From positions 1-42,849 of IMG/VR virus record IMGVR_UViG_3300005526_000015: a stretch of DNA of 42,849 bases. The stretch is one strand, 5' to 3'. The translations under genes were made by a program, and so were the position numbers. A model generated the notes under the pieces. That model was not told the DNA's origin. It did no database searches and saw only the letters and a list, made by a program, of their open reading frames with translations. The stretch comes from a virus. This document shows, piece by piece, positions 1,085-41,898 of this stretch (its first letter is position 1; every line of letters starts with the position of its first letter).

Positions 1085-1227
1085 TTAAGTATTTCCTGGC
1101 CGAAATATCCAATAAGGATGAGTGAAATTGAATTAAGTAGTATTAGCACTGTATCTTGAATCACTACCCCCACACCCAAGGCCAAAAGAGAAAAGAGGCC
1201 AAGACCTAATAGAATTTTAGGGTTCAT
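1081..1227 (-). CDS. 48-residue hydrophobic membrane protein
   Basis: The frame starts with ATG at 1227 inside the stop of the upstream gene (ATGA) and ends with TGA overlapping the next ATG, so it is translationally coupled on both sides. The product is almost wholly hydrophobic: residues about 5-23 and 26-40 form one or two membrane segments, followed by a short polar end. One copy of the dispersed 9-mer lies in frame and encodes G-V-G in the first membrane segment (1167-1175). No family is recognised. Being small, membrane-bound and in an early operon, it could affect the host envelope, but that is a guess. Confidence 0.7.
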   Translation of the reverse strand: MNPKILLGLGLFSLLALGVGVVIQDTVLILLNSISLILIGYFGQEILK

Positions 1228-1454
1228 AAAGTTACTTTCGGAGTTTCGATTTTGGGCTCATTCTGCTTTCGTAAGACTTCAGTACGCAATTTGTCAAGAT
1301 CTTCTTTGGTACAAACCTTAGCTAGAAGAAGGACTGCTTCGAGTAAGCATAAGTAATTATCAAGAGCTTTAATAGTCATAGAATGAATTGACAGCTCAGT
1401 TTCTATGGCTTTAAGGCGTTGATGTACTGAAACATTGCGAACAATGTTACTCAT
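1224..1454 (-). CDS. Small coiled-coil protein, unknown
   Basis: 76 residues, mostly helical, with heptad-like leucines and isoleucines from about residue 14 to 60 and a basic, proline-rich tail. It overlaps its upstream neighbour (1447-1656) by 8 bp and its downstream neighbour by 4 bp, as expected in a coupled phage operon. No motif is recognised. Confidence 0.65.
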   Translation of the reverse strand: MSNIVRNVSVHQRLKAIETELSIHSMTIKALDNYLCLLEAVLLLAKVCTKEDLDKLRTEVLRKQNEPKIETPKVTL

Positions 1455-1656
1455 TTGTTTCTACCTTAGCATCTTTCTTTGGCAATTGCAATACTTTTTC
1501 GATAACTTTTGTTACTGGAATGTTCCATGCTCTTGCTATAGAATCGACTGTGAGTGCTTTAATTTGGTCTTTAGTTCTATAAGCACGCCGCTCTCTGCGC
1601 TCTCTTACAAATGCCTCTTTCTCTTCGTTTAAAAGGCTATTCCAGGGCTTTCTCAT
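1447..1656 (-). CDS. Small basic protein, possible DNA-binding helix-turn-helix
   Basis: 69 residues. The first 30 are very rich in Arg and Glu (an R-E-R-R-E-R-R run). Residues about 36-55 (V-D-S-I-A-R-A-W-N-I-P-V-T-K-V-I-E-K) look like a helix-turn-helix: helix, turn at W-N-I-P, helix. This is only pattern likeness; no family is identified. Overlaps both neighbours by a few bases. Confidence 0.6.
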   Translation of the reverse strand: MRKPWNSLLNEEKEAFVRERRERRAYRTKDQIKALTVDSIARAWNIPVTKVIEKVLQLPKKDAKVETNE

Positions 1657-1892
1657 CGATTAAGCTTACCTCGGTTGCCTTTTGCTAACTCGTCTACTAT
1701 AGCCGATAATACGCGAAGTTTCTCTAATTCTAAACCGTACTTTTTTTCTTCATTTTGAACAATACGATTAAGTAAAGTTGTTTCTAACTCTTTAATATAA
1801 TTACGAATTTTGAAAAGTAAATATATTAATGAAACTGATACAATTATACCGAGTCCGAAGGTATCGATTGTGTGGTCCCAGTGCATTTGCAT
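1653..1892 (-). CDS. Membrane protein with a cytoplasmic coiled coil
   Basis: 79 residues. One transmembrane segment is visible at about residues 12-28 (F-G-L-G-I-I-V-S-V-S-L-I-Y-L-L-F), followed by a charged helix to the end. The basic residues right after the segment suggest the long C-terminal helix is inside the cell. It starts one base after the HExxH peptidase gene stops. Function unknown. Confidence 0.65.
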   Translation of the reverse strand: MQMHWDHTIDTFGLGIIVSVSLIYLLFKIRNYIKELETTLLNRIVQNEEKKYGLELEKLRVLSAIVDELAKGNRGKLNR

Positions 1893-2402
1893 TTAATCGT
1901 TTCCAGTCCATGGATGGTCACCATGATAGCACCAGTGTTCGGTTATGTATATTGCGTCTTTGATTATGTCTGCACGACTCATATTGTCATTTTTATGGTT
2001 TGGCATTCCAATGATATGCATAAGTTCATGACCAATGATTCCTTCTCTATAGGCTGCGTCTTTTACCGCAAAGAAATTGTCGCTTAGATAGATTGTGTTT
2101 TCTTCAGTAATTGTGACAGCGTAGTTGTCTTTCATGATGGGGTCTGTTGAGTATGCAAAAAAGACTTCGTTATGTTTAATAAGTACTTTTCTATATCTGG
2201 GATAAGTCTTTCGAAAGTAATTACAATTGATTAGTGTTGTATAGCCTCTGGCATAATCGGTATAAATTTGTTCTGCGTTTGCATAAAGTGGAAGTGGTTT
2301 GGGAGTGATCTCATAGGTTGGCTTTAGTTTGAAATAGATTCCAATACCAAAAACAAGGTTTCCAATAAGGATTAAACTTATAAATTTAAGTTCTTTTTTC
2401 AT
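1893..2402 (-). CDS. Membrane-anchored or exported HExxH zinc metallopeptidase
   Basis: 169 residues. Residues 1-24 form a signal peptide or anchor (M-K-K-E-L-K then a hydrophobic run). The zinc site is at 125-136: His125, Glu126, His129, Gly132 and His136. This resembles the metzincin HExxHxxGxxH signature but the third His is one residue further on. Known: HExxH is the catalytic motif of many zinc peptidases. Inferred: the active domain faces the periplasm. It lies two genes from a DNA-binding protein and about 2 kb from the PagL-like enzyme, so it may be part of an early envelope-remodelling set. The start overlaps the upstream stop (TAATG at 2402). Confidence 0.7.
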   Translation of the reverse strand: MKKELKFISLILIGNLVFGIGIYFKLKPTYEITPKPLPLYANAEQIYTDYARGYTTLINCNYFRKTYPRYRKVLIKHNEVFFAYSTDPIMKDNYAVTITEENTIYLSDNFFAVKDAAYREGIIGHELMHIIGMPNHKNDNMSRADIIKDAIYITEHWCYHGDHPWTGND

Positions 2403-2854
2403 TAATTAATTCCGAATTTATCTCGATACTTCTTAATAGCATCTTTTTCTTGAGGAGTAATTTCTTCGTGATATTTAGAGTCTGGGCCAGAGCAATCAGA
2501 GGGACATGTTGCATCATCTCGTCCAGGCGAATGTATTCCCCAACGCTTTTGATCAAGCAAAATGTTATAATGATGCCAATTTCTATATGGATAATCCATT
2601 ATGGCTAGGATATCTTTAGGCCAAGGCATATCCATTTGTTTTAATTGTATTGCGCCTGTAGATTCGACATAGTTTCTTTGTTTTCTTGTATTTTCTAACG
2701 CCTCTGATTCATCTTTTCCAAGAGCCCGAAGTAGTAACTTAGCCACTGCAACTGATAGAGAAATACCTTCCTTTGCTGCTACTCTTTCAACGGCAAATTT
2801 AAGTGGCTCGGACACACATACGGTCATTGTAGTTTTAGGAATTTTCTTTTCCAT
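2402..2854 (-). CDS. Ribbon-helix-helix-like protein with a cysteine/aspartate-rich C-terminal part
   Basis: A longer frame opens at 2971, but I choose ATG 2854: it lies 9 bp after a promoter (TTGACA, 17 bp, CAGAAT at 2864-2892), and the sequence before it looks non-coding. The 150-residue product begins with a short beta-like strand (T-M-T-V-C-V-S-E), then two helices (residues about 15-28 and 33-45), the usual ribbon-helix-helix plan. The rest carries W, H, C and D-rich patches (D-D-A-T-C-P-S-D-C) that I do not recognise. Inferred: it may be a regulator, and the 24-bp inverted repeat just upstream (2914-3107) is a possible site for it. Confidence 0.6.
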   Translation of the reverse strand: MEKKIPKTTMTVCVSEPLKFAVERVAAKEGISLSVAVAKLLLRALGKDESEALENTRKQRNYVESTGAIQLKQMDMPWPKDILAIMDYPYRNWHHYNILLDQKRWGIHSPGRDDATCPSDCSGPDSKYHEEITPQEKDAIKKYRDKFGIN

Positions 2855-2863
2855 ATACTTTCG

Positions 2864-2892: not shown

Positions 2893-2913
2893 GCCTTATT
2901 TTTAAAATATTCC

Positions 2914-3179: not shown

Positions 3180-3419
3180 TTATCGAAATAAGCTTTTTTT
3201 GAGCAATTCTAGATCAATTTCTGAGGCAGAAAGACGCTGGTTAGCGGATACTTTTTTACTTCTGTTATTGTCATCAGCCCCCACACGAAGAACAACTTTG
3301 GATGAGTGCTTTTTGTTATAATAACGAATAAGAATGCGGTAAACTGTAGCTTCGCCGAGTTCTTTTATGAGGTCTTTAATTGAGAGTTTCTTCGATGACT
3401 TTGGTGTGGAAGTCTTCAT
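3180..3419 (-). CDS. Small basic protein, unknown
   Basis: 79 residues, Lys/Ser-rich start, then a helical segment (about 15-33) and a basic end. The dispersed 9-mer at 3278-3286 is in frame and encodes R-V-G. It also contains the GTTATAATAAC element. Start ATG 3419 lies within the end of the upstream 56-residue gene. No family recognised. Confidence 0.6.
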   Translation of the reverse strand: MKTSTPKSSKKLSIKDLIKELGEATVYRILIRYYNKKHSSKVVLRVGADDNNRSKKVSANQRLSASEIDLELLKKSLFR

Positions 3420-4367: not shown

Positions 4368-4859
4368 TTAGAACTCCAATCCTGATTCAATACCAATGAA
4401 TTCCATACCAATATTACCATTTGAATTGTGAGCTGAACTTATATGGTGAAAAAAGACACCTAATGATATAGAGTTTCTATAAAGACCCGCAGATACATGT
4501 GTAGAGAATTGTAAGTTATTGTCTAGGTATTTATTTTTTGCTGATATGATTGTGAGTCCTTGAGATGCAGATGCATAAAGCCCGAGCTCTGTTTTTATAA
4601 GCAGTGTGGGGGCTAGTGTACCAAAATAGCTGACACCTTCAGTAAGCTCGCTTATAGTTAAGACACCAACTTCGTAATTGAGTTTAAGACAGTTCCATTT
4701 GCTTATTGGAGTAGTTTGTAGGCCAAATGATAAGAATTTGTTACCGCTGTTATCTCCGCGACCATAACCACCTTTAAAGAGGATTGCATTTTGTGCATAT
4801 GCTAAAGATGATGTCATTAATGATACTACTATAATTGTGCTATTTAAGAGTTTTTTCAT
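4368..4859 (-). CDS. pagL-like: PagL-like lipid A 3-O-deacylase (outer-membrane acyl hydrolase)
   Basis: 163 residues. Residues 1-22 are a typical signal peptide ending A-Y-A before Gln23. The rest alternates polar and hydrophobic residues as in an outer-membrane beta-barrel and ends in Phe. The end matches Pseudomonas PagL as I remember it: His139, Ser141 and Glu153 fall at 0, +2 and +14, the same spacing as PagL catalytic His126, Ser128 and Glu140; Asn149 and Gly151 also line up, as does the S-L-G-V lead-in. Known: PagL removes the 3-O-linked acyl chain from lipid A. Inferred: the phage alters host LPS during infection, perhaps to block other phages or dampen envelope sensing. The dispersed 9-mer at 4604-4612 is in frame (A-P-T). 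Confidence 0.75.
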   Translation of the reverse strand: MKKLLNSTIIVVSLMTSSLAYAQNAILFKGGYGRGDNSGNKFLSFGLQTTPISKWNCLKLNYEVGVLTISELTEGVSYFGTLAPTLLIKTELGLYASASQGLTIISAKNKYLDNNLQFSTHVSAGLYRNSISLGVFFHHISSAHNSNGNIGMEFIGIESGLEF

Positions 4860-5981: not shown

Positions 5982-6566
5982 TTCTTGAGTCATATTTTTA
6001 TGTATCCCTATTCGTTCGTTGATAGTTGAATTGATGCATTTTTCATGCCATTGTCGTAGCAGACTGAGCATACAAGCGCATCTGCTGCATATCATTCGTA
6101 TCACAATTGGCACAGAATTTGCATTTGGAACTTGTAGCTTTTATCTTTCTGACATTAATGTCTCGGATTAATTACGTATGTAGTGCGACATATGTGACTC
6201 ACCCCCGCCATGGGTGGACCCTATGATGTGTAAGGGTAGTAATAAATGACTAATCTCTCTACGCGCTAACGAAATCACCATTCTAACTATCGAATATAAT
6301 TGATCTTTTTGAGTTATGTAAACTAAGCCGCCCACAAAAATAAAAAACAAAATCCCCACCCAAATTCAAAAAGCCAATAATATCAACCACTTGATGCCGC
6401 ACAATTTCTTGCACAATTTGATGGACTTATTGTCTAAAAAACGCCAGTTTTTTACTATCGATGGTGCATGATGCACAATGGCTTAAGAAAGTAACTAAAT
6501 AGTAGTTATAAATCTAATGACTTAAAAAGTGAGCAGAATTTAATCATGCACTACTGCATTTTTTAT
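5982..6566. other. Divergent intergenic region, no convincing gene
   Basis: About 585 bp between the leftward and rightward operons. It holds repeats rather than genes: GCACAATTT at 6399-6407 and 6411-6419 (12-bp period), and a perfect 6+1+6 palindrome GTGCAT-G-ATGCAC at 6464-6476 followed by another GCACAAT. A 63-codon minus-strand frame (6168-6359) starts at GTG without a ribosome site and is not called. The layout fits a control region or replication origin. Confidence 0.5.
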
Positions 6567-6596
6567 TTGAATAGATTCGAGCACTTATGTTATAAT
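6567..6596 (+). promoter_or_regulatory. Strong rightward sigma70-like promoter
   Basis: -35 TTGAAT (6567-6572), 18-bp spacer, perfect -10 TATAAT (6591-6596). Transcription should start near 6603, 8-9 bases before the ATG at 6612. Confidence 0.65.
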
Positions 6597-6611
6597 ACAT
6601 TTTCACCTTTT

Positions 6612-6839
6612 ATGACTAAAGAAGAAGATCTAGAATTCCAAAAATGGCTCGATGAATCTTTCGATGATATGTTTAACGAAGATCCTGGATTTCAACTAAT
6701 CCCATCCCCCACACAAAGTAAAAACAATTGCAAGCATCACCAGAAGAATAAGACCCCAATTGCCCTCCCAGAGAAGTCCTTTGAGAAGTGGTTTGTCTGT
6801 AGAAACTGTGGCAAGCCCATGTCCCAAAAGCCAGATTAA
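6612..6839 (+). CDS. 75-residue zinc-finger protein
   Basis: The frame opens earlier (6546), but that start lies upstream of the promoter at 6567-6596, so ATG 6612 is chosen. The product is acidic at the start (K-E-E-D-L-E-F-Q-K-W) and has C-K-H-H and C-R-N-C-G as a possible zinc site. The dispersed 9-mer at 6706-6714 is in frame and encodes S-P-T. First gene of the rightward operon; role unknown. Confidence 0.65.
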   Translation: MTKEEDLEFQKWLDESFDDMFNEDPGFQLIPSPTQSKNNCKHHQKNKTPIALPEKSFEKWFVCRNCGKPMSQKPD

Positions 6840-7836: not shown

Positions 7837-7859
7837 GCTTCCGGGGTGTGGGGGCTCTG

Positions 7860-8550: not shown

Positions 8551-9235
8551 GTATACCAACTTCCAAAAGAAGCTTATTGCAATGCCCCTGGCTCAGCGGC
8601 TCATTGCTCTACAAGATCCCTACACATTCATTAAAGCCTGCATCTATACCAGAGATGAAGTTGATAAAGATAACCCAGTCAAACTTGCCCCCATGACGCC
8701 AGGACTACCGGGATATAAACCATATGTAGAAACCGCCATACGTGTACTTGAGGCTTGCCCCAGAACTATCTTTGATAAGTCTCGCCGCATGTGGATCTCA
8801 TATACAATCTTAGCATTCTATCTTCATAGATCTTTTACAAACACAGACCAGAGATACGGTATCGTTACAGAAAAGTTTGATAAGAGTGTCGAGCACTTAC
8901 GCAACATGAAGTTAATGTATGAGAACATTCCAGAAGAGATCTACCCTAAAGCTTGTAGGCCCACACTCAAATCACGAGAAGGACTCATTGAATTTGAAGA
9001 GATCGGTTCTCTAATCCATGCTATAGCATCAGGTCCAGACCAAGCAAGGCAGTTCGGGTTCTCAGGCCTGTTTTTTGATGAGTATGACTTCTGGGCAGAC
9101 CAAGAGAGCACCTATGCTGCTGCACTTCCTACACTAGGTAATACAGGTCTTCTCACGATAGCCACTACGCATCAAATGATTGCTACTGGCGAAGACTCTC
9201 ACTATAAGAAGCTTCTCGAGGATCGCCTTGACTAA
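8543..9235 (+). CDS. terL (N-part): Terminase large subunit, ATPase part
   Basis: 230 residues. The nucleotide-binding loop is of the atypical phage kind (K79-S-R-R-M-W-I-S, no G-K-T). Walker B is L-F-F-D-E (176-180), followed by the coupling motif A-T-T-H near 207-210. The frame stops at 9235, just where the nuclease domain would follow. The nuclease is in the next frame (+1). Either the gene is truly split, a +1 frameshift joins the parts, or there is a one-base error. Role: motor that pumps DNA into the prohead. Confidence 0.85.
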   Translation: MTKYTNFQKKLIAMPLAQRLIALQDPYTFIKACIYTRDEVDKDNPVKLAPMTPGLPGYKPYVETAIRVLEACPRTIFDKSRRMWISYTILAFYLHRSFTNTDQRYGIVTEKFDKSVEHLRNMKLMYENIPEEIYPKACRPTLKSREGLIEFEEIGSLIHAIASGPDQARQFGFSGLFFDEYDFWADQESTYAAALPTLGNTGLLTIATTHQMIATGEDSHYKKLLEDRLD

Positions 9236-10118
9236 GAAAGTCCCAGGTGTGTCTGAGTTATCTCGGTTCCTTCCAGATGATCCTATGGGAGTATCAATTC
9301 ACAAGAATCCTAAGAATGGCTTCGTCGTAGTTGGTTTAGATTACTTTGCTGATCCAGAACGTAGAGATCCTAAGTGGATTCAAGAACAGCGCCAGACACT
9401 TGGTATCAAACGTTGTGCTGTAGAAGTAGAGCGCTCTTGGGAGACCTTTGCAGGTAAAGGAATCTATGACAAAGCATTCTATAAGCACCTGCACATTACC
9501 CCCACACCAATCTCATATAACCCACTATTTCCCATCTTCCGTGGCTGGGATTTCGGTGGCAATCAGTCAGTCGCAATATGTCAAATCATAGATGGTAGAC
9601 TCAACGTCTTAGATGAAATGCCAAACAAAGGACTTAACACCAGAGCCTTTGCCCCAGAAGTAATCTCATATTGCAATTCACGATATGGTAGTGACGTACA
9701 TTATTTAGACATCGTTGACCCCTCCGCTGCTTGGGAAGGTAAGACTGCTGAAGGCAAGGCCTGCACAGATGTGATGCGAGAGTACGACATGCTCCCCATA
9801 GCAGCACCCACAAATGATCCCCAGAAACGAATTGATGCAGTAATAGAACTCCTTATGCGCCTATGTCCAGATGGCAAACCCGCACTTCAGATAAGTCCTA
9901 ATTGCCAAATGCTTATTAGAGGATTTGAAGGAGGCTACCATTATCCAGAGAAAATCACTCAGGCTAAACGAATGGATCGCCCTGTAAAGAATCTATTCTC
10001 CCATATTCATGATGCTTTACAATATGTTGCCCTTCGCATGAAATCTCACAACACAGATCGATCAGAAGAAATAGATTATGAATCAGCCATCACCAGATAC
10101 AAGTTCTCAAATAATTAA
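9228..10118 (+). CDS. terL (C-part): Terminase large subunit, nuclease part
   Basis: 296 residues from TTG 9228. A ribosome site (GAGG at 9218-9221) lies 6 bp before this TTG, and the first part ends TTGACTAA, the same overlap type used by other gene pairs here. Seen: Asp108 in G-W-D-F-G-G, Asp164 in V-D-P-S-A, and Asp262 in H-D-A-L-Q-Y. These are the three acidic residues of the RNase H-like headful nuclease. The dispersed 9-mer at 9499-9507 is in frame (T-P-T). The frame is open further upstream (to 9180), so the exact start is uncertain. Confidence 0.85.
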   Translation: MTKKVPGVSELSRFLPDDPMGVSIHKNPKNGFVVVGLDYFADPERRDPKWIQEQRQTLGIKRCAVEVERSWETFAGKGIYDKAFYKHLHITPTPISYNPLFPIFRGWDFGGNQSVAICQIIDGRLNVLDEMPNKGLNTRAFAPEVISYCNSRYGSDVHYLDIVDPSAAWEGKTAEGKACTDVMREYDMLPIAAPTNDPQKRIDAVIELLMRLCPDGKPALQISPNCQMLIRGFEGGYHYPEKITQAKRMDRPVKNLFSHIHDALQYVALRMKSHNTDRSEEIDYESAITRYKFSNN

Positions 10119-10257
10119 GTTCCACAAAGTCTGTAAAAACTGTAGGATACAGCAACTTTCTCCACTAGAGAAGATCCAAGGTCTTTGTCGCAGCTGTAGA
10201 AAAGTTCTTACTGCTAAGCCAGCCCCCACACGCCCAAAGTATAGCTTCTGCAAGTAG
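10078..10257 (+). CDS. 59-residue zinc-ribbon protein
   Basis: Starts at ATG 10078 inside the terminase gene (41-bp overlap). Cys19-x2-Cys22 and Cys37-x2-Cys40 form a classic ribbon, followed by a basic tail. The dispersed 9-mer at 10223-10231 is in frame (A-P-T). The start is only weakly supported by its AGAAGAA leader. Confidence 0.6.
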   Translation: MNQPSPDTSSQIIKFHKVCKNCRIQQLSPLEKIQGLCRSCRKVLTAKPAPTRPKYSFCK

Positions 10258-10555: not shown

Positions 10556-10563
10556 AGGTGACA

Positions 10564-12477
10564 ATGACATCTGAATATGAATCTAAACTCGCTGATCAGC
10601 GACGCAAAGTAGCCGACTTCATTTTAAGCTGTGCAATCGAATCAAGACTAAATGAAAAAGTTCCCCGCCGACTACAAAACAAATTAAATTGGGACTACTT
10701 CCACGGAACAATTGACTGGTCACACAAGCGCGAATCAGATCCCAGAATCCACTTACATAAAATAGGCGTCTCCGCAGAGAGAACTAAAGCTAAATTCAAA
10801 GGTGCCCTAATGAAATGGGACCAATGGATCACAGTAGAACGCCACTATCTTCCCCCCAATCCGATCCTCCCCGACTTCGCTGCAAGAAATTTACTTATTA
10901 AACAACTTAAAAATGCCAAAGCTGAGACTGTAATCTCCGATGCTATCCTTCGTGGGCTTATGGAATCTAGAATCGCTATCAAAATTGGCAGCAAATATGT
11001 TACCAAACCCCGGTATACCAAGGATGGTGTGGGGGCTCTGGTAAGAGATGAAGAGAAAGTCTGGCAACTCAACCTTGATGCTATCCCTTTTGAAGGATTT
11101 CTTATCGATACTGAGAATACTAAAGACCCAATCTATCAAATTGAAGAGTGTAGAGTCGATTATAACCAAGTTTTAGAGCTTTCTTCTGAAGAACAGTCCG
11201 CAGATAAGCCATTTCGCCTAGAAGCGGTTAAATCTTTAGTGGCTTTCCCACAAAGAGAGCAAGAACAGGCTGAAAGAGCTGCTCGCGGCAACTATATTGA
11301 CATTCCAAGGCTTCGTCACCGTAAACAAATCCTAATTCAGAACTTTTACGGCACAATTCTCAATGAAGACGGTACTATTTTCGAATGGGAGACCGAATCA
11401 GGTGAAAAAATCCCTCTAAAGAACGTGTTTTGTGTCATGGCTAACGAATCAGAGCTTCTTATTGACCCAATGCAGAACAAAAGATGGTCAGCGAAGTCCC
11501 CATACATATCAGCAGACCCGCTACGCTCCCCAAGCAATGGTAGAAAAGCTCTTATGGACGCTGGTGTCTTAGTCAATCAAGCTCAAGATGAATTATTCTC
11601 ACTCGCATTAGCTGGTGCTCTTAAAGCAGCACACAATGTCACCTGGTATCGCAAAGATTGGATCGCGGATAAACGAGTCCTCTCTGGTGGTATCCGAGAT
11701 GGTGATCAAGTTGCTATCGATGCATCTTGCCCACCTAATGCCACACCCCTAGGCACAATTAAAACAGGTGAAGTCCCACAAGAAGTATTCACTATGCAGC
11801 AAGTCCTTGATCGAGTATTTGCAGAAAACGTCCTATCAAACCAGATCGACTTAAGTGGTAACTTACCCGGCAAGCAAGTCCGAGCTACTGAAGTCGTATC
11901 AGCATCTACCGCTATTGCAGATGTATTTGATTCAATGAGTGGTGACATTGAACATGATCTTATTGAGCCTCTTGCTGAAGAATGTCTTTATGAGATCGTT
12001 CAACACATTGATGAGATGGATGAAGAAGAAGTTAAATCTTGCTTTGAAGATCGTCAAGACCTAGCAGATCAATTCATGAAACTTTCTCCTAAGAAACGTT
12101 TTGAACAGGTCGCAGGTACTTTCAAATTTGGTGGCAAAGGTCTCCATGGTCTTATTGCAAATCAAGCCAAAGGCCAAATGATGGTAAATTTACTGTCAAC
12201 GATTATGAGCAATCCTCTTACCCAACAAGCAGTCGAATCATCAATCTCACCAGTCAAAATCATTAATGAGATCGCTAAAGGCATGGGTATGGATATCGAA
12301 GAGCTTAAACCATCTCCACAAGAGTCTCAGATGATTCAACAGAAACAACTTATTAGAGAACAGGCATTAGCCCAACAAGCAGGTGGTCAACAACCACAAC
12401 CAGGAAATGCTTCACAAGGATCGCAGCCATCCCCAGAACAACCCGCTGGTAATGGCGCACCCGGACAAGGAATGTAA
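10564..12477 (+). CDS. Portal protein
   Basis: 637 residues from ATG 10564, which follows AAAGGTG by 5 bp; an in-frame GTG at 10558 is the alternative. The length, position right after the large terminase, helical N-terminus, mixed beta core (residues about 130-300), long helical region and Gln/Pro/Gly-rich tail fit podovirus-type portals. No single catalytic motif exists for this family. Known: twelve copies form the ring through which DNA enters and leaves the head. The dispersed 9-mer at 11027-11035 is in frame (G-V-G). Confidence 0.75.
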   Translation: MTSEYESKLADQRRKVADFILSCAIESRLNEKVPRRLQNKLNWDYFHGTIDWSHKRESDPRIHLHKIGVSAERTKAKFKGALMKWDQWITVERHYLPPNPILPDFAARNLLIKQLKNAKAETVISDAILRGLMESRIAIKIGSKYVTKPRYTKDGVGALVRDEEKVWQLNLDAIPFEGFLIDTENTKDPIYQIEECRVDYNQVLELSSEEQSADKPFRLEAVKSLVAFPQREQEQAERAARGNYIDIPRLRHRKQILIQNFYGTILNEDGTIFEWETESGEKIPLKNVFCVMANESELLIDPMQNKRWSAKSPYISADPLRSPSNGRKALMDAGVLVNQAQDELFSLALAGALKAAHNVTWYRKDWIADKRVLSGGIRDGDQVAIDASCPPNATPLGTIKTGEVPQEVFTMQQVLDRVFAENVLSNQIDLSGNLPGKQVRATEVVSASTAIADVFDSMSGDIEHDLIEPLAEECLYEIVQHIDEMDEEEVKSCFEDRQDLADQFMKLSPKKRFEQVAGTFKFGGKGLHGLIANQAKGQMMVNLLSTIMSNPLTQQAVESSISPVKIINEIAKGMGMDIEELKPSPQESQMIQQKQLIREQALAQQAGGQQPQPGNASQGSQPSPEQPAGNGAPGQGM

Positions 12478-14796: not shown

Positions 14797-15014
14797 TGGG
14801 AAAAAAACCAGCAGATGAAGTAATGTTTCAAAATGATAGTGATGAAAAGGAATTCGAAGTTCGTTCTGGTCAGGCTAGAAAAGTTCTTCCTGATTTCAAT
14901 ACCCCAGAGAATAAAGACGCCTATAATCAAAAAGTAAAAGCAGATACAGATGCCGCAGCAGCAAGAGGCGGCAAACTCTATCCTGATGCATTTGATAAAA
15001 CAAAGAAATATTAA
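14796..15014 (+). CDS. 72-residue charged protein, unknown
   Basis: Starts inside the previous stop (TAATG) and ends inside the next start. Lys/Asp-rich with an alanine run (D-T-D-A-A-A-A-R-G-G). No family recognised. Confidence 0.6.
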   Translation: MGKKPADEVMFQNDSDEKEFEVRSGQARKVLPDFNTPENKDAYNQKVKADTDAAAARGGKLYPDAFDKTKKY

Positions 15015-15241: not shown

Positions 15242-15288
15242 ATCCGCTGGATTTGTCTTCCGTGTGGGGGCAGGTGTTATTACTATAC

Positions 15289-15317: not shown

Positions 15318-15323
15318 ACAAGT

Positions 15324-31342: not shown

Positions 31343-31843
31343 GTGTTTCATATTTGGCCTTGTCCTGATTGTAAAGTCCTCATAAATAACATCACATCGA
31401 AATGTAGTTGCGGGTATATAAAAGTGGTTGAACTAATAACTCTAGACAAATATTTAGGTCTCGTGCCCCCACACGATCCCACACTATTGAGCAATGCTAA
31501 AGATCTCCTCTTAAAAGTAAACTCCCTATTACAAGAGATAGGAATAACTGACGTAGTAATGACCTCTGGTTATCGCTCCCCCGAATATAATACAGCCATT
31601 GGCGGGGCAGCAAATAGTAAGCACACCACATGCCAGGCAGTAGATTTAAGCGATAATGACCGAATTATAGGCATGCGGCTTTATACCTTTCAAGATGGGC
31701 TCATCTCTAGAGGTCTTTATTGCGAGGATTTGGATTATTGTATTAAAAAGAATGGATCTAAGTGGGTGCATATTCAGTCTGTAGCACCTAAATCGGGGAA
31801 TCGCTTTTTCATTCCCTACGCAGGTCCGCCAATACGGAAATAA
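31343..31843 (+). CDS. Endolysin: zinc ribbon plus M15-type D-Ala-D-Ala peptidase
   Basis: 166 residues, GTG start. The N-terminus has a four-Cys ribbon (Cys7, Cys10, Cys21, Cys23). From residue 70: S-G-Y-R-S-P, then His94 (S-K-H), Asp101 (A-V-D-L-S) and His143 (W-V-H-I), the zinc ligands of peptidase M15. Known: such enzymes cut peptidoglycan stem peptides. The ribbon fusion is unusual. The dispersed 9-mer (31466-31474) is in frame (P-P-H), and a shortened TCCCACAC follows 8 bp later. Confidence 0.8.
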   Translation: MFHIWPCPDCKVLINNITSKCSCGYIKVVELITLDKYLGLVPPHDPTLLSNAKDLLLKVNSLLQEIGITDVVMTSGYRSPEYNTAIGGAANSKHTTCQAVDLSDNDRIIGMRLYTFQDGLISRGLYCEDLDYCIKKNGSKWVHIQSVAPKSGNRFFIPYAGPPIRK

Positions 31844-31875
31844 AAAACCCCCCGAAACTTACCTGCGTGTGGGGG
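31818..31875. terminator. Nested inverted repeat after the endolysin, possible leftward terminator
   Basis: ACGCAGGT (31817-31824) and ACCTGCGT (31861-31868) form an 8-bp stem. Inside and next to it, CCCCCC (from 31847) can pair with the GGGGG of the dispersed 9-mer (31867-31875). Read leftward, CCCCC-loop-GGGGG is followed by TTTTTT, a rho-independent terminator layout for minus-strand transcripts. Confidence 0.45.
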
Positions 31876-32346: not shown

Positions 32347-32656
32347 ACTCTTTTCTTACTCTACGATAGATCCGTCTGTGTGTCAACTTAAACTTGCGGC
32401 CATGATATGGAGATCTCAAAACTCCATGTGCCAATTCATGAGAATAGAGACTAAGTAAAAAACGAGTTGTATATCTTTTTTTGTTAGTATTTTTAAATCT
32501 CATATAAATAAAAATATCTTTTTTTGTCTGACAGCAATATCCGAAAAAGAGTCCTAAAAAATCATCTGTATTTGTTAGTTCTCGAACAAGAACATTCTTA
32601 ATACCAAGTTTTTGACATATCCGATTAGATATAGCCTGTAGTTTACGCCGGGTCAT
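32327..32656 (-). CDS. SprT-like zinc metallopeptidase
   Basis: 109 residues. H-E-L-A-H is followed by Y-H-G-R-K-F, which fits SprT/YgjP-like peptidases (HExxH then a third His before G-x-x-F). The end is very basic (H-R-R-I-Y-R-R-V-R-K). Known: SprT-type enzymes cut DNA-bound proteins in eukaryotes (Spartan); bacterial roles are less clear. It overlaps the ATPase gene upstream, so a replication-linked role is possible. Confidence 0.6.
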   Translation of the reverse strand: MTRRKLQAISNRICQKLGIKNVLVRELTNTDDFLGLFFGYCCQTKKDIFIYMRFKNTNKKRYTTRFLLSLYSHELAHGVLRSPYHGRKFKLTHRRIYRRVRKEYEESLF

Positions 32657-33851
32657 GGGAAAGCCTAGAAAAATGTCTTTCAGAACCTATAATAGTTTCT
32701 CTTATTGAACTCGATCTCTTAAGACCTTCAACAACACCAGTAACGGTCTCACTAACAGAGATAAATTTACCATGCTGTAAGAGTAATCTTCGTAAACCGC
32801 TTTCACTGATAGTATCAGGTGCCAAAGGAATAAGTTCTGCAAGTTGACTATGGAGATCATCATCTTTTTCGATGTTTCTAGTACCAAATGCGCTGATCAT
32901 ATAAGGTTCAACCTCTTCGATCCATTGGAGTGCCTGCTCTATATCACTAATTGATATAATCTTTGAACCTCTCATTGCAGCAAGCGTTATAGCGACTTTG
33001 GTTATATGATCTGGCTTACGACCATAGTAATTCTGGTAAAACTCACCTATAGCATCAAAGCAATCATTATCAGCTTTCTCTGCAAGTTCAATATATCGCA
33101 TTTCAGCTTCTCGGTCAAAAACAATAGGCCCTAATAACGCATAAACGCTTCGTAGGGCTTCGATCAGCTCTTGGTAGCTACCTAGGTCTTGGTTAACTAG
33201 AGATCGTTGTTTTAAGACCCTATTAGGCTCTACTACAAACAAGATACGGCTAGAGAGTCCTGAGGTAATGAGCTTATCTTGGGCCGCAGACTGTAAAAAT
33301 GACTCTGTGGTGCCTCCAAGAAGGGTAAGAGAAGGATTGGCCAGGATTAGGGTCTTATTATCAGTTACAATACGTTTTTGAATCTCTACATAAAGACCTT
33401 TAGAGTCATAAAAATCAATTAATTCATTTGTGAGAGTTCCACCACCAAAATCGACCATATTGATAGCAAGTTCGGAGGCATATACGAATAGAGGAGAAGA
33501 CCTGAGATCCCCCACACCGGGGACAGGATATAACTTCTCTGAGTCTTTGAGTTCTTTATATAGGGCTGCTTGGGTAATCTTCGTTGGTCCAAGACGTGGC
33601 TTTGGCTTACCAGGAATCTCGATCTTATTAAACAAATCTACTGTAAGCTGTGCTGCGGTTGATTTCCCTGCTGCAGGTGGTCCAACAAGAATAGTATACA
33701 TATTAGGAAAGATCACCCCTAGACGACCCCGATCTAACCATACCCGACGCTCAAGTAAAGCAGCAACAATAGTGATAAATGACCACCGATGATACATCAC
33801 AGAACCTTTAATCGGCTCTACGTAATTTAAGTATTTATCTATGAGTTGCAT
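32643..33851 (-). CDS. DUF3987-like P-loop ATPase (replicative helicase-like)
   Basis: 402 residues. Walker A G-P-P-A-A-G-K-S-T is near residue 57-66, after W-S-F-I-T-I-V-A-A-L-L-E-R-R. This opening and length fit DUF3987 proteins, which are RecA/DnaB-like ATPases common in phages. It overlaps the DNA polymerase gene by 13 bp. The dispersed 9-mer (33509-33517) is in frame (G-V-G-D). A helicase or loader role is inferred from fold and place. Confidence 0.7.
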   Translation of the reverse strand: MQLIDKYLNYVEPIKGSVMYHRWSFITIVAALLERRVWLDRGRLGVIFPNMYTILVGPPAAGKSTAAQLTVDLFNKIEIPGKPKPRLGPTKITQAALYKELKDSEKLYPVPGVGDLRSSPLFVYASELAINMVDFGGGTLTNELIDFYDSKGLYVEIQKRIVTDNKTLILANPSLTLLGGTTESFLQSAAQDKLITSGLSSRILFVVEPNRVLKQRSLVNQDLGSYQELIEALRSVYALLGPIVFDREAEMRYIELAEKADNDCFDAIGEFYQNYYGRKPDHITKVAITLAAMRGSKIISISDIEQALQWIEEVEPYMISAFGTRNIEKDDDLHSQLAELIPLAPDTISESGLRRLLLQHGKFISVSETVTGVVEGLKRSSSIRETIIGSERHFSRLSHDPA

Positions 33852-36091
33852 TTAGCTAAACTACCCCAAGCCCCGCCTGATTTAAGATCAAAAGGAATTC
33901 GTCTAGAGACTCCATTTATTACTATGTCGAGTTTGGCATGGGCATCTTTGATGAGTCCCAAAACCAAATTAACTTTGTCCTTATTTATTTGAAGTAAGAG
34001 TGCGTCATGAATTTGGGCCAAAACATTAAAGGATCTATTGTATTCACTTGTCTTTGATAGAAGTATCCACAACTTATTTATTGTATCGACCACAGTTGCT
34101 TGTGGAATAAAACTTAAGCCCTTTCTAACCATTTCTGAATCTAATGGACCGTAGAAGAGTCCCGATCGATGTAGTGGGGTTTCGAGTTTTCTCGTTCGTC
34201 CAAGTTGCGCTTCGATAGTCCCTTGCCAAATAGGAATAGCAGGAAAAGTGGCGGCGCGAGCCTCCAAAAGCTTTCGAGAATCAGCCACACTAATTGACAG
34301 GTCAGCTTCAGTAAGGCAAGAATCCGAGAATTTTTCGGCTCCCATGCCGTAATTACTAGCGTGATTGATCCGTTTTCCCAGCTGTCGTGGGCAAACAAGT
34401 CTACTTTTTTCTGTAACTCTATCTGCTGTGTATTGGTGGACATCTTCATTATTCTCCATTAGCTCTATTAGTTTTTGTTCATTTGAAAGCCAAGCAACTA
34501 CTCGAAGCTCAGCTTGTGAAAGATCAATCTCAACTAAGATTTTTCCTTCATCAGGTATAAATAAATTCTTAATATTTAATGTGGACTGCTCACTCGGTCT
34601 TGGTATCGTGAGGATGTTGAGCCCTGTATCCCAGGGTGTTTTTTGAGCAGAGAATCTTCCACTAATTGTGCCAGCAATATTATAGAAGAAGCGTAATCTT
34701 TTATCTTCATCAAGTAAGAGACTTGCATAGGTGGATTTGAGTTTAGATAGCCGATTGTATATAAGTAAGTTTTCAATAAAGGGATGTGGATTCTTTCTAT
34801 GTAATTTAAGAAGACTTTCACGGTCTGTGGAGGGGCGACCTTTCTTAGTTGGGATTCGATAGCCAAGGGCAATGAGGACACTTTTGATCTGCTTATCTGA
34901 ATTGGGGTTGAACTTTTGCGGGCTTTCTTCAAACACTTCTTTAAAGGCCTTTTTTTCATCTGTATCGTTCTCCTTATCTCTTATTGTTTTACGAATCTTT
35001 CTTGGCTCAACTAAAGGATCTCCAATAGAAGATAAAACATTCATTACCGGAGTAAGTTCTTTATTAAGAGCATCTTTTAATTGCTTAAGAAACTCCTCAT
35101 CTATTTTTACACCCCGGACACATGTATCATACACCAAAGGAATAAGAGGCGCAATATATTCATTATAATGACCCATCTTCTCAGTTCTAGAAAGTTCAGC
35201 AAGTTGTCGCAAATAAACAGTAAATGTTCTAGATGCGTCATAAGCATTGTATCTCCAAAAAGCCTCTACATCCCCAGTAAGTTTAAAATCTTTATTATCT
35301 TTCCATGGAGCACAATAAAGATAAATACGCCCCAAATCACGTAAGCTTTTAGGAAGTAGTGGATTGAGTGAAGAGGCCATAATCATTGTATCTGCCACAT
35401 TCATCTGTGTCTCAATACCATGATATCGTAAGATCATCGTATCAAATATGAAGTTTTGAAATATTTTTAGCTTATCGCTAAGTAAAACCATTTGAATATA
35501 ATCCCACACAACTAACTCTTCTTCAGGAGACCAATAATTAGTTAAATGTTTATTGGCCAGGGGTATACAAATAACCTCTGTCGTAGATGCTGCAAAAGCA
35601 ATAGAAGTGATCTCACAGGTTTCTGGAACACATTCAATATCGATTGACACAGCTTCATTGGTGTTCACAAGTTTGTGTACAAAGGATTCTACATCTTTAA
35701 GTTCAGGTTTTAGGATCGTGTGGGGGCTGGGATCAATAGTAGATGCGCCTAACAGAAGTTGCTTTGCTTTCTTTAGTGACCAGTCTAGCCAATGAGTAGT
35801 TAAATGATCTTTGAAGACTTCTTTATAATCTAGACATGGAATGACTGTGTTTGTTTCTGTTTCTACTATATAACTGTGACAATCAGAAACAGATAAAGTT
35901 GGATCTCCAATAATGGATCGTGTTGCTACGTCTCCAACAGTAACTAAAATGGAACCTTTTGTTGGGATTTCTTCTGGTTTTAAGATCTTTACTTTTTGAG
36001 GGATCTTTAAGCGAGCGAGGGATTGTTCAAACTGTTTTCTGAAGTAGTCTTGTTTATTATCGATTCCGAGAATTTCAATCCTATCATTCAC
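33839..36091 (-). CDS. Family A DNA polymerase with 3'-5' exonuclease
   Basis: 750 residues. The first 110 residues (I-L-V-T-V-G-D-V-A-T-R-S) resemble a decayed uracil-DNA glycosylase-like domain; inferred only. Exonuclease: D-I-E near 149-151, Q-N-F-I-F-D near 210-220, Y-N-A-Y-D-A near 284. Polymerase: motif A D-L-S-Q-A-E-L-R near 515, motif B R-Q-L-G-K-R-I-N-H-A-S-N-Y-G near 575, and motif C I-H-D-A at 694-697. In most family A enzymes motif C reads H-D-E; here the Glu is Ala697. The dispersed 9-mer (35718-35726) is in frame (S-P-H-T). Coupled to the aminopeptidase gene (ATGA). Confidence 0.9.
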   Translation of the reverse strand: MNDRIEILGIDNKQDYFRKQFEQSLARLKIPQKVKILKPEEIPTKGSILVTVGDVATRSIIGDPTLSVSDCHSYIVETETNTVIPCLDYKEVFKDHLTTHWLDWSLKKAKQLLLGASTIDPSPHTILKPELKDVESFVHKLVNTNEAVSIDIECVPETCEITSIAFAASTTEVICIPLANKHLTNYWSPEEELVVWDYIQMVLLSDKLKIFQNFIFDTMILRYHGIETQMNVADTMIMASSLNPLLPKSLRDLGRIYLYCAPWKDNKDFKLTGDVEAFWRYNAYDASRTFTVYLRQLAELSRTEKMGHYNEYIAPLIPLVYDTCVRGVKIDEEFLKQLKDALNKELTPVMNVLSSIGDPLVEPRKIRKTIRDKENDTDEKKAFKEVFEESPQKFNPNSDKQIKSVLIALGYRIPTKKGRPSTDRESLLKLHRKNPHPFIENLLIYNRLSKLKSTYASLLLDEDKRLRFFYNIAGTISGRFSAQKTPWDTGLNILTIPRPSEQSTLNIKNLFIPDEGKILVEIDLSQAELRVVAWLSNEQKLIELMENNEDVHQYTADRVTEKSRLVCPRQLGKRINHASNYGMGAEKFSDSCLTEADLSISVADSRKLLEARAATFPAIPIWQGTIEAQLGRTRKLETPLHRSGLFYGPLDSEMVRKGLSFIPQATVVDTINKLWILLSKTSEYNRSFNVLAQIHDALLLQINKDKVNLVLGLIKDAHAKLDIVINGVSRRIPFDLKSGGAWGSLAKCNS

Positions 36092-36837
36092 TTTACCGCC
36101 GTCAAGACTACAGGCCCCTCGGAAGTAATTGCAACAGTATGTTCAAAATGAGCAGCTAAAGAATCATCTCTAGTTACTACTGTCCAACAATCATTAAGTA
36201 CTAAAGTTTCTGGATTTCCAGCGACTACTACAGGCTCAATTGCTATTACCATACCTTCTTGCAATTCTATACCTGTATTAGGTATACCTTGATTAGGTAT
36301 CTTCGGATCTTCATGCAAAGTACGTCCGATTCCATGACCTGTATATCCTTCTACAACAGAATAGCCGGCAAGTTTTACATATTGCTCTATTGTAAAAGAC
36401 ACATCCCCCACACGAAAACCAGGGGAACAAAGTTTAATTGCCTCGGTAAGAGCCTCTTTTGTGGTTTGGATTAGATCTGAAGCATCTGTAGTGGTGGTGC
36501 CGATGGGTATTGTAATTGCCATATCTGTATTAAAACCATCTAAAATCGCTCCCACGTCCAAAGATAAAATGTCTCCGCCGACTAGTTTGCGATCATTTGG
36601 GATGCCATGGATGACTTCGCTATTGACTGAAGCACAGATATTGTATTCGTAACCTCGGTATCCTTTGAAAGCACTTTTAAGACCTTCTTTTTGAAGCATG
36701 CGAGCAAAGATACCGTCTAATTGTTTTGTAGTGCGTCCCGGAGAGGCAAGTTCTGCAAGTTCAGATAGTACTTTTGCTAAGCGTTTGCCACACTCTTTCA
36801 TTACTTCTATTTCTGATTTTGATTTTAGAATTATCAT
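36088..36837 (-). CDS. map: Methionine aminopeptidase, type I
   Basis: 249 residues, full length for the family. Metal ligands Asp94, Asp105, His168, Glu201 and Glu232 are present, each three less than the E. coli numbers (97, 108, 171, 204, 235); His77 and His175 are also kept. Known: it removes the first Met from new proteins. A phage copy is uncommon. It lies between DNA polymerase and a methyltransferase gene, with ATGA overlaps at both ends. The dispersed 9-mer (36405-36413) is in frame (R-V-G-D). It may hasten maturation of virion proteins; inferred. Confidence 0.9.
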   Translation of the reverse strand: MIILKSKSEIEVMKECGKRLAKVLSELAELASPGRTTKQLDGIFARMLQKEGLKSAFKGYRGYEYNICASVNSEVIHGIPNDRKLVGGDILSLDVGAILDGFNTDMAITIPIGTTTTDASDLIQTTKEALTEAIKLCSPGFRVGDVSFTIEQYVKLAGYSVVEGYTGHGIGRTLHEDPKIPNQGIPNTGIELQEGMVIAIEPVVVAGNPETLVLNDCWTVVTRDDSLAAHFEHTVAITSEGPVVLTAVK

Positions 36838-38315: not shown

Positions 38316-38493
38316 CTGAAAAATCCCTATCACGATTAATTCGATATACAACATAGTTCTCTAATACAAGATTACCAATAAAACCAACTCCAACAGCAAT
38401 AAAATAGTTATCAGTTAAAAAAGCTACTGTTGCAACACTAATAGCAATTGTAGTTAAATAGATATAAGCAAAAGTCTTTAAAAAGTGTTTCAT
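38293..38493 (-). CDS. 66-residue two-span membrane protein
   Basis: Two hydrophobic stretches at about 6-26 and 30-48, then a polar end (R-I-N-R-D-R-D). It overlaps both neighbours. Unknown. Confidence 0.6.
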   Translation of the reverse strand: MKHFLKTFAYIYLTTIAISVATVAFLTDNYFIAVGVGFIGNLVLENYVVYRINRDRDFSDVEQQKL

Positions 38494-38924
38494 TTTACAA
38501 TCTTTACTGGCATACTGGCAAGGTTTGCATCATCGTCAGCAGCATAAGAACCAATCATAGCAGACAAGGCATAGCGTCGGGCATATGAAATGCAGCTACC
38601 AACACCTTGAGGATCATTTTTAGAAGGGCTCATTACAGTAGTTCCGCAGATCCATTCGCCACTAATGTGGGTAAGTAAAGTTGTGACTGTGATTACGGTT
38701 CCATTACCGCCAGTAAGTTGCACGACTGCAAGACCATTTTTAGCCAAAGGTTCTCTTACGGATTCCCAAACGCTTTGAAGATCTGCATATTTACTTTTGA
38801 AGAATGGATTAGTGCTGTCTTTTATTGCGGGAGCAAGAGTTGCTTGTACTTTTACTAATGCTTCAGTAAGTTTTGAGATTGAAGCACTCATTAAATTTTC
38901 ACTTAGTTTGATTGGGGATTCCAT
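38490..38924 (-). CDS. erf: ERF-family single-strand annealing protein
   Basis: 144 residues. N-P-F-F-K-S-K-Y-A-D-L-Q-S-V-W (41-55), and D-P-Q-G-V-G-S-C-I-S-Y-A-R-R-Y-A-L-S-A (105-122) followed by D-D-D, are the ERF signature. Known: Erf anneals complementary strands, and in P22 it circularises the genome. Works with DUF669 and probably the RecB-like nuclease at 86-1084. Short for the family, so the C-terminal part may be lacking. Confidence 0.85.
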   Translation of the reverse strand: MESPIKLSENLMSASISKLTEALVKVQATLAPAIKDSTNPFFKSKYADLQSVWESVREPLAKNGLAVVQLTGGNGTVITVTTLLTHISGEWICGTTVMSPSKNDPQGVGSCISYARRYALSAMIGSYAADDDANLASMPVKIVK

Positions 38925-39185: not shown

Positions 39186-39362
39186 CTATTTCCCAAATTT
39201 CGGGGTCCAGCCGGAACCAATAAGGCTAAAAGAGGTATTATAGGTCGTATTGCGAATCACTGAGCCCCCACACGCCGGACAAGAACGCTTTTTATCCCGA
39301 TCTGCAACAGAGGCTTGAGCATCATAAGGTCCGCATTTTTTGCATACAAAAGTGTAGAGCAT
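39186..39362 (-). CDS. FmdB-like zinc-ribbon protein
   Basis: 58 residues. Starts M-L-Y-T-F-V-C-K-K-C-G; the second pair is C-P-A-C-G-G (28-33), the FmdB-type layout. ATG 39362 shares a base with the upstream stop. The dispersed 9-mer (39265-39273) is in frame and encodes A-C-G-G, the only copy that lands on a zinc site. Confidence 0.65.
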   Translation of the reverse strand: MLYTFVCKKCGPYDAQASVADRDKKRSCPACGGSVIRNTTYNTSFSLIGSGWTPKFGK

Positions 39363-39547: not shown

Positions 39548-39556
39548 AAGTCTCCT

Positions 39557-40812: not shown

Positions 40813-40825
40813 AATAACTTAAATA

Positions 40826-41035
40826 TTAAAGATCCTCCAATTTTGAATTAATCAAAGCATCTCTTATAATTACATGCATAAGTTCTAAGTTACTTTCATA
40901 ATAATCATAAGTAATATCAGTAATTCTTTGTTGTTCTTTAATTATTAATCCAGTTAATTTTATTAATAGAATTCCTAATATTCCAAATAAAAAACACAAA
41001 ACAGCACAAATTAAAATTGTGTCATTTGAGATCAT
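40826..41035 (-). CDS. 69-residue membrane protein with helical tail
   Basis: A transmembrane segment at about 6-28, then an acidic/Gln-rich helix. Overlaps the HD gene upstream by 4 bp. Unknown. Confidence 0.6.
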   Translation of the reverse strand: MISNDTILICAVLCFLFGILGILLIKLTGLIIKEQQRITDITYDYYESNLELMHVIIRDALINSKLEDL

Positions 41036-41535
41036 ACTCCGCCGAGTTCCTTAAATCTAAGTAAGAAAAGCTTTTCTACATTCTTTGAAGCCATAGGTAT
41101 TTTTTTCCATCCTTTTTGAAAGAGACGCTCATCAAATAATACTTCTTTATCTGCTTGGTGAACGATCTTAGTAAAAGGATACTTTAAATTGAATCTTTTT
41201 GCAATAGCTTTCTGAAATCGCTTCTCAAGTCGCTGGTAGTCTTTACAAAGGGCCTTCATTGGAGATGGAACGTCTGCGCAATAAGCCTCGGATGCATCAT
41301 GAAGTAGACCGGCTAAGGCTTCTTTAGGACTGCCTCCATTACGCTCGATCCATTCCGAAACCACAATCGAATGGGCAGCTACAGAATACAGGCTGGGAAG
41401 CTGCCCTGAAAAACGACAAGTAAGTGAAAGACCACGAGCAATGTCAGAAATTCTAATATCTGCTGCGACAGGAGCTTTAGCTTTGATTTTGACTCCGGTC
41501 CAGGTACGAAAGTAATCTTTAGATGTGGAGCGCAT
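41032..41535 (-). CDS. HD-domain nucleotide hydrolase, YfbR-like
   Basis: 167 residues from ATG 41535, which follows GGAGA and shares a base with the upstream stop. His55, His79-Asp80 and Asp129 form the HD metal site (A-A-H-S, L-L-H-D-A, Q-A-D-K). Y-S-V-A-A-H-S at 50-56 and E-A-Y-C-A-D-V-P-S-P at 83-92 match YfbR-type 5'-nucleotidases. Known: such enzymes release dNMP phosphate or hydrolyse dNTPs. Together with DUF5664 it may shape the dNTP pool. Confidence 0.75.
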   Translation of the reverse strand: MRSTSKDYFRTWTGVKIKAKAPVAADIRISDIARGLSLTCRFSGQLPSLYSVAAHSIVVSEWIERNGGSPKEALAGLLHDASEAYCADVPSPMKALCKDYQRLEKRFQKAIAKRFNLKYPFTKIVHQADKEVLFDERLFQKGWKKIPMASKNVEKLFLLRFKELGGV

Positions 41536-41642
41536 TAAAAAAATCTCCTGCATAGTATACCTAGAATAAATCCACCTAAAAATGCCACCGCCCCCACACC
41601 CAGGACCACTTTCATGAATGTGCGCATGATTTGATCAAACAT
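41535..41642 (-). CDS. 35-residue membrane peptide
   Basis: ATG 41642 overlaps the upstream stop (ATGTTTGA). Single span V-V-L-G-V-G-A-V-A-F-L-G-G-F-I-L-G-I-L then C-R-R-F-F. The dispersed 9-mer (41591-41599) encodes G-V-G in the span. A longer frame to 41861 is judged a shadow. Confidence 0.55.
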   Translation of the reverse strand: MFDQIMRTFMKVVLGVGAVAFLGGFILGILCRRFF

Positions 41643-41898
41643 AATAGTCCGGATCTTTGTGCTTCCGTGTGGGGGTGTGACCTCGTTCACGGCGGCGACG
41701 TCGCATTTCATTATATCTATCGATGTTTTCATTGTGCCAGGCAAGAGCAATTCGGGCACAGAATTTGCGCCTACAGTTAGGGGAGCATGATTTTTTGCTT
41801 CTATTCTTGGTGTTATCAACAAATTCAGTGTTGCAAATGTTGCAAACTTTTTTGCAGACAAAATCTGGATACTTTTCTAAGTTACCGTCTATAGTCAC
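41635..41898 (-). CDS. Zinc-finger protein, possible DNA/RNA binder
   Basis: 87 residues. C-K-K-V-C-N-I-C near 15-22 and C-S-P-N-C-R-R-K-F-C near 38-47 form a Cys4-type zinc site with basic linkers; the second half is Arg-rich (R-R-R-R-R-E-R). It resembles the zinc knuckles of HNH or ParB-type proteins, without a catalytic H-N-H. The dispersed 9-mer (41667-41675) is in frame (T-P-T). Confidence 0.6.
   Translation of the reverse strand: MTIDGNLEKYPDFVCKKVCNICNTEFVDNTKNRSKKSCSPNCRRKFCARIALAWHNENIDRYNEMRRRRRERGHTPTRKHKDPDYYV

Follow-up and report, generated by a model that had tools for sequence, protein, structure and literature searches.

A dispersed G-run word on both strands of a phage genome, read as a candidate virus-specific DNA-processing site

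Why should a phage genome carry the same short word, letter for letter, at 23 places on its two strands, and what could read it? The question is raised by the IMG/VR virus record IMGVR_UViG_3300005526_000015, a stretch of 42,849 nucleotides (nt) that was analysed over its whole length and is called the window below. In it GTGTGGGGG occurs 23 times without mismatch, 10 times on the plus strand and 13 times on the minus strand, from position 1167 to position 41675. We read GTGTGGGGG as a virus-specific, strand-asymmetric DNA-processing site. It is present far beyond chance, is nearly exact, lies on both strands with regular spacing at least on the plus strand, and is not a general word of the sequence bin or of the bacteria sampled.

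Number, exactness and placement of the word

An earlier sequence-only reading of the window had counted 23 copies on both strands with no gap above 4.1 kb and about 0.07 copies expected by chance. Both statements hold: the largest distance between neighbouring sites is 4,100 nt, and Markov models of orders 0, 1 and 2, with the sites left unmasked, expect 0.086, 0.078 and 0.081 copies on both strands together. A higher-order background that predicts tens of copies had been named as the result that would overturn the claim; with the 23 sites masked, the expectation is 0.05–0.34 copies at each order from 0 to 6. Without masking it rises to 0.27, 0.55, 2.8 and 14 at orders 3–6, because the sites themselves then train the model. 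Ranked by excess over the order-2 model, GTGTGGGGG is first among all 9-mers of the window. Its 27 possible one-mismatch variants occur six times in total and two of these occurrences overlap exact sites, leaving four independent ones; GTGTGGGGG is therefore an exact word and not a drifting family. The sites are as follows, with the residues into which each in-gene copy is read; ORF stands for open reading frame.

1167-1175, minus strand, intergenic
3278-3286, minus strand, in ORF 3180-3419 (RVG)
4604-4612, plus strand, in the PagL-like gene 4368-4859 (APT)
6706-6714, minus strand, in ORF 6546-6839 (SPT)
7846-7854, plus strand, intergenic
9499-9507, minus strand, in ORF 9180-10118 (TPT)
10223-10231, minus strand, intergenic
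11027-11035, plus strand, in ORF 10558-12477 (GVG)
15127-15135, minus strand, in ORF 15014-15241 (SPHT) and also in the overlapping ORF 15087-15425 (APT)
15262-15270, plus strand, in the overlapping ORF 15087-15425, whose reality is uncertain (RVG)
18318-18326, minus strand, in ORF 18301-18714 (APHT)
19708-19716, plus strand, in ORF 19518-20273 (GVG)
23310-23318, minus strand, in the tail gene 22771-24432 (SPHT)
23957-23965, plus strand, in the tail gene 22771-24432 (GVG)
27798-27806, plus strand, in ORF 27092-28348 (RVG)
31466-31474, minus strand, in the M15 peptidase-like gene 31343-31843 (PPH)
31867-31875, plus strand, intergenic
33509-33517, minus strand, in the DUF3987 gene (GVG)
35718-35726, plus strand, in the DNA polymerase gene (SPHT)
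36405-36413, minus strand, in the M24 peptidase gene (RVG)
39265-39273, minus strand, intergenic
41591-41599, minus strand, in ORF 41535-41861 (GVG)
41667-41675, plus strand, in ORF 41535-41861 (PPH)

With the ORF set chosen here, 18 of the 23 copies lie in genes and five (at 1167, 7846, 10223, 31867 and 39265) between them, in keeping with the earlier statement that the word is found in both. Within genes it is read as G-V-G or R-V-G nine times, as S-P-H-T or A-P-H-T four times, as P-P-H twice and as A-P-T, S-P-T or T-P-T three times, or four with the alternative, overlapping ORF at 15127. The tally given before (9, 5, 4, 1 and 1) comes close to this, except that its A-C-G-G reading is absent with the chosen ORFs and P-P-H is found twice. 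Nine in-gene copies are on the coding strand and nine on the opposite strand, so the orientation of the word is unrelated to gene direction. All nine copies on the coding strand fall in a single frame, one that avoids Trp and Cys, whereas the other nine use all three frames; protein tolerance therefore limits where the word can sit. With this caution, it seems to be the DNA word itself that is under selection, as had been proposed, in view of its exactness, its intergenic copies, its presence on both strands and its even spacing. The flanks are not random either: C or G precedes the word in 19 of the 23 copies and C follows it in 15, then T, S, K and G, giving an extended context of roughly SGTGTGGGGGCTSKG, and four of the five intergenic sites likewise have C or G before and C after. 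A G-quadruplex formed inside one site is unlikely, since each site has one G-run only.

How are the copies spaced? On the plus strand the successive intervals are 3.2, 3.2, 4.2, 4.4, 4.2, 3.8, 4.1, 3.9 and 5.9 kb, a coefficient of variation (CV) of 0.186, and in post hoc testing this evenness was matched in 26 of 2,000,000 uniform random draws. The minus-strand copies (CV 0.54) are also more even than random (P 0.024), and the strands alternate, with 18 runs against 12.3 expected (P 0.011). The mean gap from a minus copy to the next plus copy is 0.9 kb, versus 2.6 kb from plus to minus (one-sided P 0.026, two-sided 0.052). The pattern suggests a process that runs along each strand and requires a site every few kb.

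A second virus with a word of the same form

Fourteen virus genomes were compared with the window, five chosen by similarity of the polymerase, seven by similarity of the DUF3987 protein and two by neighbouring accession. One of them, the circular genome of Caudoviricetes sp. vir526 (BK063670, L132), whose host is labelled Methanomicrobiales in the host field of the record, has a comparable word. In vir526 CTGACGGGGGGG occurs 19 times exactly, 7 times on the plus strand and 12 times on the minus strand, at 1024-42778, with one further copy at one mismatch and one at two. It resembles GTGTGGGGG in being an exact, dispersed, virus-specific G-run word on both strands, and differs from it in its 12-nt core with G7, its different specifier and its uneven spacing. 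Seven minus-strand copies lie around the head and terminase genes between 30.4 and 44.2 kb. Eighty genomes from the order to which a Methanolinea metagenome-assembled genome belongs have 24 copies of CTGACGGGGGGG, spread over 22 of them, versus 27 of the reversed control, so the word is not enriched there.

Scans of IMG/VR gave four further contigs rich in CTGACGGGGGGG, besides one near-identical copy of vir526. In the relative with 89.2% identity all nine aligned sites are kept where 2.7 are expected (P 1.9e-5); at 94.1% identity 12 of 14 are kept (expected 7.5, P 0.012), at 95.0% 11 of 13 (expected 7.8, P 0.054) and at 95.5% 7 of 7 (expected 4.7, P 0.057), with expectations taken from neighbouring 12-mers in the alignment to vir526. 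Under a stricter count, in which a G-run three longer is scored as a loss, the figures become 8 of 9 (P 4.3e-4) for the 89.2% relative and 11 of 14 (P 0.049) for the 94.1% relative. These relatives are not independent: the same two sites account for two losses in two of them, and the 94.1% and 95.5% contigs, both of which derive from one metagenome, could be fragments of a single virus. Judged from these alignments, the different G-run word of vir526 is conserved against divergence. The earlier question whether the site is kept while its flanks diverge is thus answered positively for the analogous word of vir526; for GTGTGGGGG itself no diverged relative was found.

How much else do the two viruses share? 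Both have a PF12705 nuclease and a recombinase, which is ERF in the window and an AAA_24 ATPase annotated as Sak4-like in vir526, and both encode a DUF3987 protein, labelled 'DNA primase' in PHROGs, and a family A DNA polymerase. A shared reader protein was considered and rejected, as a direct ORF-by-ORF comparison at E 0.01 matched only the family A polymerases, which are distantly related. No solved structure matched the nuclease or DUF3987 profile by sequence.

The same word count was applied to 214 loci of at least 8 kb, which overlap and are not a random draw. It recovered both virus families and, in two cyanobacterial loci (L258 and L301), a word that we take to be HIP1. HIP1 (GCGATCGC) is, like GTGTGGGGG, a dispersed over-represented word of its genomes, but it is palindromic and host-wide, whereas GTGTGGGGG has no copy elsewhere in a bin that is itself probably not the host. 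Weaker or GC-rich cases (GC, G+C content) also appeared, e.g. L018, L137 and L281. CACGGTGGCC occurs nine times in 10.8 kb on both strands of L018, a viral contig of 66% GC; L137 (OP947158) has dispersed TATGTCCCAA and TTGGGACATA words with an operator-like look. Elsewhere, two viral contigs of 73% GC (L112 and L127) have six and seven copies of CTGACCCCT over about 14 kb, chiefly on one strand, and overlapping words such as GATGCGGCC and TACAAGCGGC occur six to seven times in EBPR podovirus 3 (L141, JF412296).

The host of the phage and the search for its relatives

The contig belongs to a 1.93-Mb bin, 85% complete, which its archaeal AmoA identifies as an ammonia-oxidising archaeon. The phage genes of the window encode a family A DNA polymerase, a DUF3987 protein, a PD-(D/E)XK exonuclease, ERF, an M24 peptidase, an FkbM methyltransferase, a dGTP/dATP diphosphohydrolase and a ClpP-like protease. 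The last of these (30236-30937) has a signal-like N-terminus and lies within the structural gene block. An archaeal host was at first favoured, from the AmoA of the bin and the Methanomicrobiales label of vir526, and was dropped mainly on account of a gene at 4368-4859 for a lipid A deacylase of the PagL type (30.1 bits, cut-off 23) and of a GC higher than that of the bin (39% versus 34–37% in nine readable bin stretches). A PagL gene in an archaeal bin suggests a mis-binned phage with a Gram-negative host, and the window is probably just that, the evidence from composition being weak: its tetranucleotide correlation with the bin is 0.33, versus 0.37–0.55 for bin contigs, which is a weak difference. 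Also in line with mis-binning, the capsid-like protein of the phage is in none of 60 related genomes. Shine-Dalgarno-like words precede 16 of 36 ORFs in the window and 11 of 57 in the bin, but also 24 of 48 in vir526 and 24 of 61 in phage tf, and the count therefore does not separate archaeal from bacterial viruses.

Is GTGTGGGGG then a word of some host? There is no copy on any other contig of the bin. Forty genomes of the bin's order hold 114 copies (0 to 15 each) versus 102 of the reversed control, which is no enrichment. In 299 Pseudomonadota a 12-mer form, which covers 7 of the 23 phage copies and would reveal only a host sharing the flank preference of the phage, was present in 51 genomes with at most three copies each; in 198 Bacteroidota a 10-mer form covering 15 of the 23 copies was present in 131, with at most 34 copies (in a 3.6-Mb genome, control 15). 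Neither group shows a Chi-like density, nor do four further genomes searched for GTGTGGGGG. A few Bacteroidota have a small excess over the control (e.g. 10 and 9 versus 0), far under one copy per 2 kb. The reading as a host-wide Chi finds no support in these counts and is weakened by them; as they disfavour host words, a reader on the virus side becomes more likely.

Relatives of the window phage were sought in several ways. Scans of IMG/VR gave no relative with the window polymerase and, with the capsid-like and 639-aa proteins, only contig 3300027821_000032, which is 100% identical, so that conservation could be tested only for the word of vir526. A blastn search of INPHARED with a 4.3-kb structural stretch gave no match; by tblastn, three structural proteins had no match, two others matched a single distant record each, and the polymerase, DUF3987 and glycosyltransferase-like proteins had distant matches. 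Scans for pairs of GTGTGGGGG at the spacing of two existing site pairs returned 7 and 11 stretches, the first set including the window's own contig; the other stretches have at most five copies, in a contig of 71% GC. A 14-mer scan gave, among the matches listed, 117 new loci, none with more than two copies of the word. These scans thus returned no diverged relative, a result that falls short of proving that none exists.

Four of the 11 stretches share an unrelated conserved element. It is 85-86 nt long, lies in viral contigs of about 40% GC (L333, 10344-10428; L334, 8911-8996; L336, 4675-4759; L338, 173-257), and is bounded by inverted CCCCCACAC and GTGTGGGGG with a conserved inner sequence. 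The element may be a structured RNA; three sources (L333, L334 and L338) were searched against Rfam and gave no match above the cut-off.

What may read the word

We infer that the DNA machinery of the virus itself reads GTGTGGGGG. The sequence-only reading had pointed to ERF and a RecB-like nuclease, and both are indeed encoded in the window, together with the replication proteins:

86-1084, minus strand, PD-(D/E)XK exonuclease (PF12705, phrog_1218), a candidate reader or partner of the word
38490-38924, minus strand, ERF single-strand annealing protein (PF04404)
33839-36091, minus strand, family A DNA polymerase (phrog_17)
32643-33851, minus strand, DUF3987 protein (PF13148; phrog_14296, labelled 'DNA primase' in PHROGs)

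The mechanism that we tentatively prefer, at less than even confidence, is a Chi-like one that serves the virus's own exonuclease and annealase. A virus-encoded end-resecting nuclease, presumably the PD-(D/E)XK exonuclease acting with ERF, would pause or stop at the site on the strand being read. Whichever side a broken or processed end was entered from, a site in the right orientation would be reached after a few kb at most, and resection would leave a single-stranded tail of limited length to serve recombination-dependent replication and concatemer formation. The known Chi words are asymmetric and rich in G. The Chi of E. coli (GCTGGTGG; PMC3784561) shares with GTGTGGGGG that it is short, asymmetric and G-rich and is found on both strands, in and out of genes, a likeness of presence and not of activity; it differs in being a host word, whereas GTGTGGGGG is on no other contig of the bin and is unenriched in the genomes sampled.

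Several points weigh against this mechanism. Among the window and vir526 proteins compared or scanned, no reader protein of GTGTGGGGG was identified, which agrees with the earlier remark that no gene names the reader. Established Chi readers are host complexes of the RecBCD/AddAB type. Three comparison phages with a PD-(D/E)XK nuclease by annotation only (L130, L131 and L133) lack such a word, and the link between nuclease and word is therefore not specific. In lambdoid phages the reported enrichment of Chi is modest, with a median observed/expected ratio of 2.4 overall (PMC3784561), versus about 290 for GTGTGGGGG, some 100-fold more. The spacing tests on GTGTGGGGG were picked after the positions had been seen, and conservation was tested for the word of vir526, where the closer relatives alone give weak P values (0.012–0.057, or 0.049–0.057 under the strict count). 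In vir526, moreover, the sites show no even spacing on either strand (P 0.20 and 0.43) and no significant alternation of strands (P 0.38), and no plus copy lies from 30.4 to 44.2 kb.

The nearest documented precedent is a phage nickase recognition site, at which the virion DNA would carry a single-strand interruption, as in tf, phiKMV, Rembedalsseter and T5. The nick motifs (LUZ24/tf-like TACT/RTGMC and WACTRTGAC, phiKMV-like and T5) are short, exact, lineage-specific words in and between genes, and so is GTGTGGGGG. Those of tf and Rembedalsseter are described as 9-nt words with 13-14 copies (PMC3517423, PMC11780129), i.e. over ten per about 45 kb, and tf, a podovirus with a genome of 46,267 bp and two convergent gene sets, is close to the window phage in size. 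Our method, used on tf as a control, recovered 11 exact copies of TACTGTGAC (0.26 expected) and three variants. All 14 lie on one strand and none on the other; for Rembedalsseter 13 of 13 on one strand are reported (PMC11780129), and the motifs of both phages are concentrated to one genome side, whereas GTGTGGGGG has a G-run and is spread evenly over both strands (10 and 13). When 29 window and 20 vir526 proteins were scanned against Pfam, some small ORFs being left out, no nickase scored above the cut-off. A nick site is our second choice, though rather unlikely; the presence on both strands and the regular spacing are better explained by Chi-like nuclease control or by site-specific priming.

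In the priming alternative a virus-directed primase would start lagging or displaced strands at the G-run word, and each strand would need one site per few kb. The two occupied strands fit this, as do the regular 3-6 kb spacing of the plus strand, the form 'specifier plus G-run' common to both viruses, and the polymerase and DUF3987 protein that both encode. Known primases, however, read 3-5 nt. The same Pfam scans found no primase domain above the cut-off, the alignment shows no N-terminal extension of the window DUF3987 protein, and ten other phages with a DUF3987 relative (L130, L133-L141) lack a comparable word. We regard priming as improbable.

A similarly low probability attaches to the reading that GTGTGGGGG is the Chi, or another word, of a bacterial host outside the sample and that the phage has taken it over for the sake of protection or recombination. 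GTGTGGGGG is G-rich and on both strands, the sampled genomes may not include the true host, and lambdoid phages that lack RecBCD inhibitors are reported to over-represent Chi even when they have their own recombinase (PMC3784561). Against this stand the lack of a Chi-like density in 299 Pseudomonadota, 198 Bacteroidota, 41 genomes of the bin's order (bin included) and four more, an observed/expected ratio about 100 times that of phage Chi, and the vir526 word that is likewise unenriched in the 80 genomes of the Methanolinea order.

Little credence can also be given to the view that a phage protein binds the word and thereby silences, partitions or condenses the genome. The orientation of stoperators follows transcription, whereas that of GTGTGGGGG in genes is nine to nine; binding does not need even spacing per strand, and no integrase or repressor was recognised among the window proteins scanned. 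The likeness is to the stoperators of Cluster A mycobacteriophages, numerous asymmetric sites across the genome, bound by a repressor that is described as ending transcription (PMC9283540). The DNA-modification and uptake readings proposed earlier gained no evidence, and that interpretation as a whole is partly supported.

Chi and nicked phage genomes have been studied for decades, and we know of no established virus-coded Chi. Among the literature matches listed there was no report of such a both-strand word, and no bacteriophage paper with the exact word turned up in the full-text library searched; the purpose of phage nick sites is described as still open (PMC11780129). It is possible, if doubtful, that some tailed viruses have a private Chi. 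This would be a G-run word specific to the virus, repeated at intervals along each strand and read by a nuclease or replication protein that the virus encodes; it would bound resection or start synthesis, would tell own from host DNA, and would have been re-invented in different lineages (as GTGTGGGGG and CTGACGGGGGGG). The two virus families, each with an exact G-run word of its own on both strands and one of these words under measurable selection, offer a concrete sequence and candidate genes. Should the word mark self DNA for a virus nuclease, this would amount to a recognition system open to assay in vitro.

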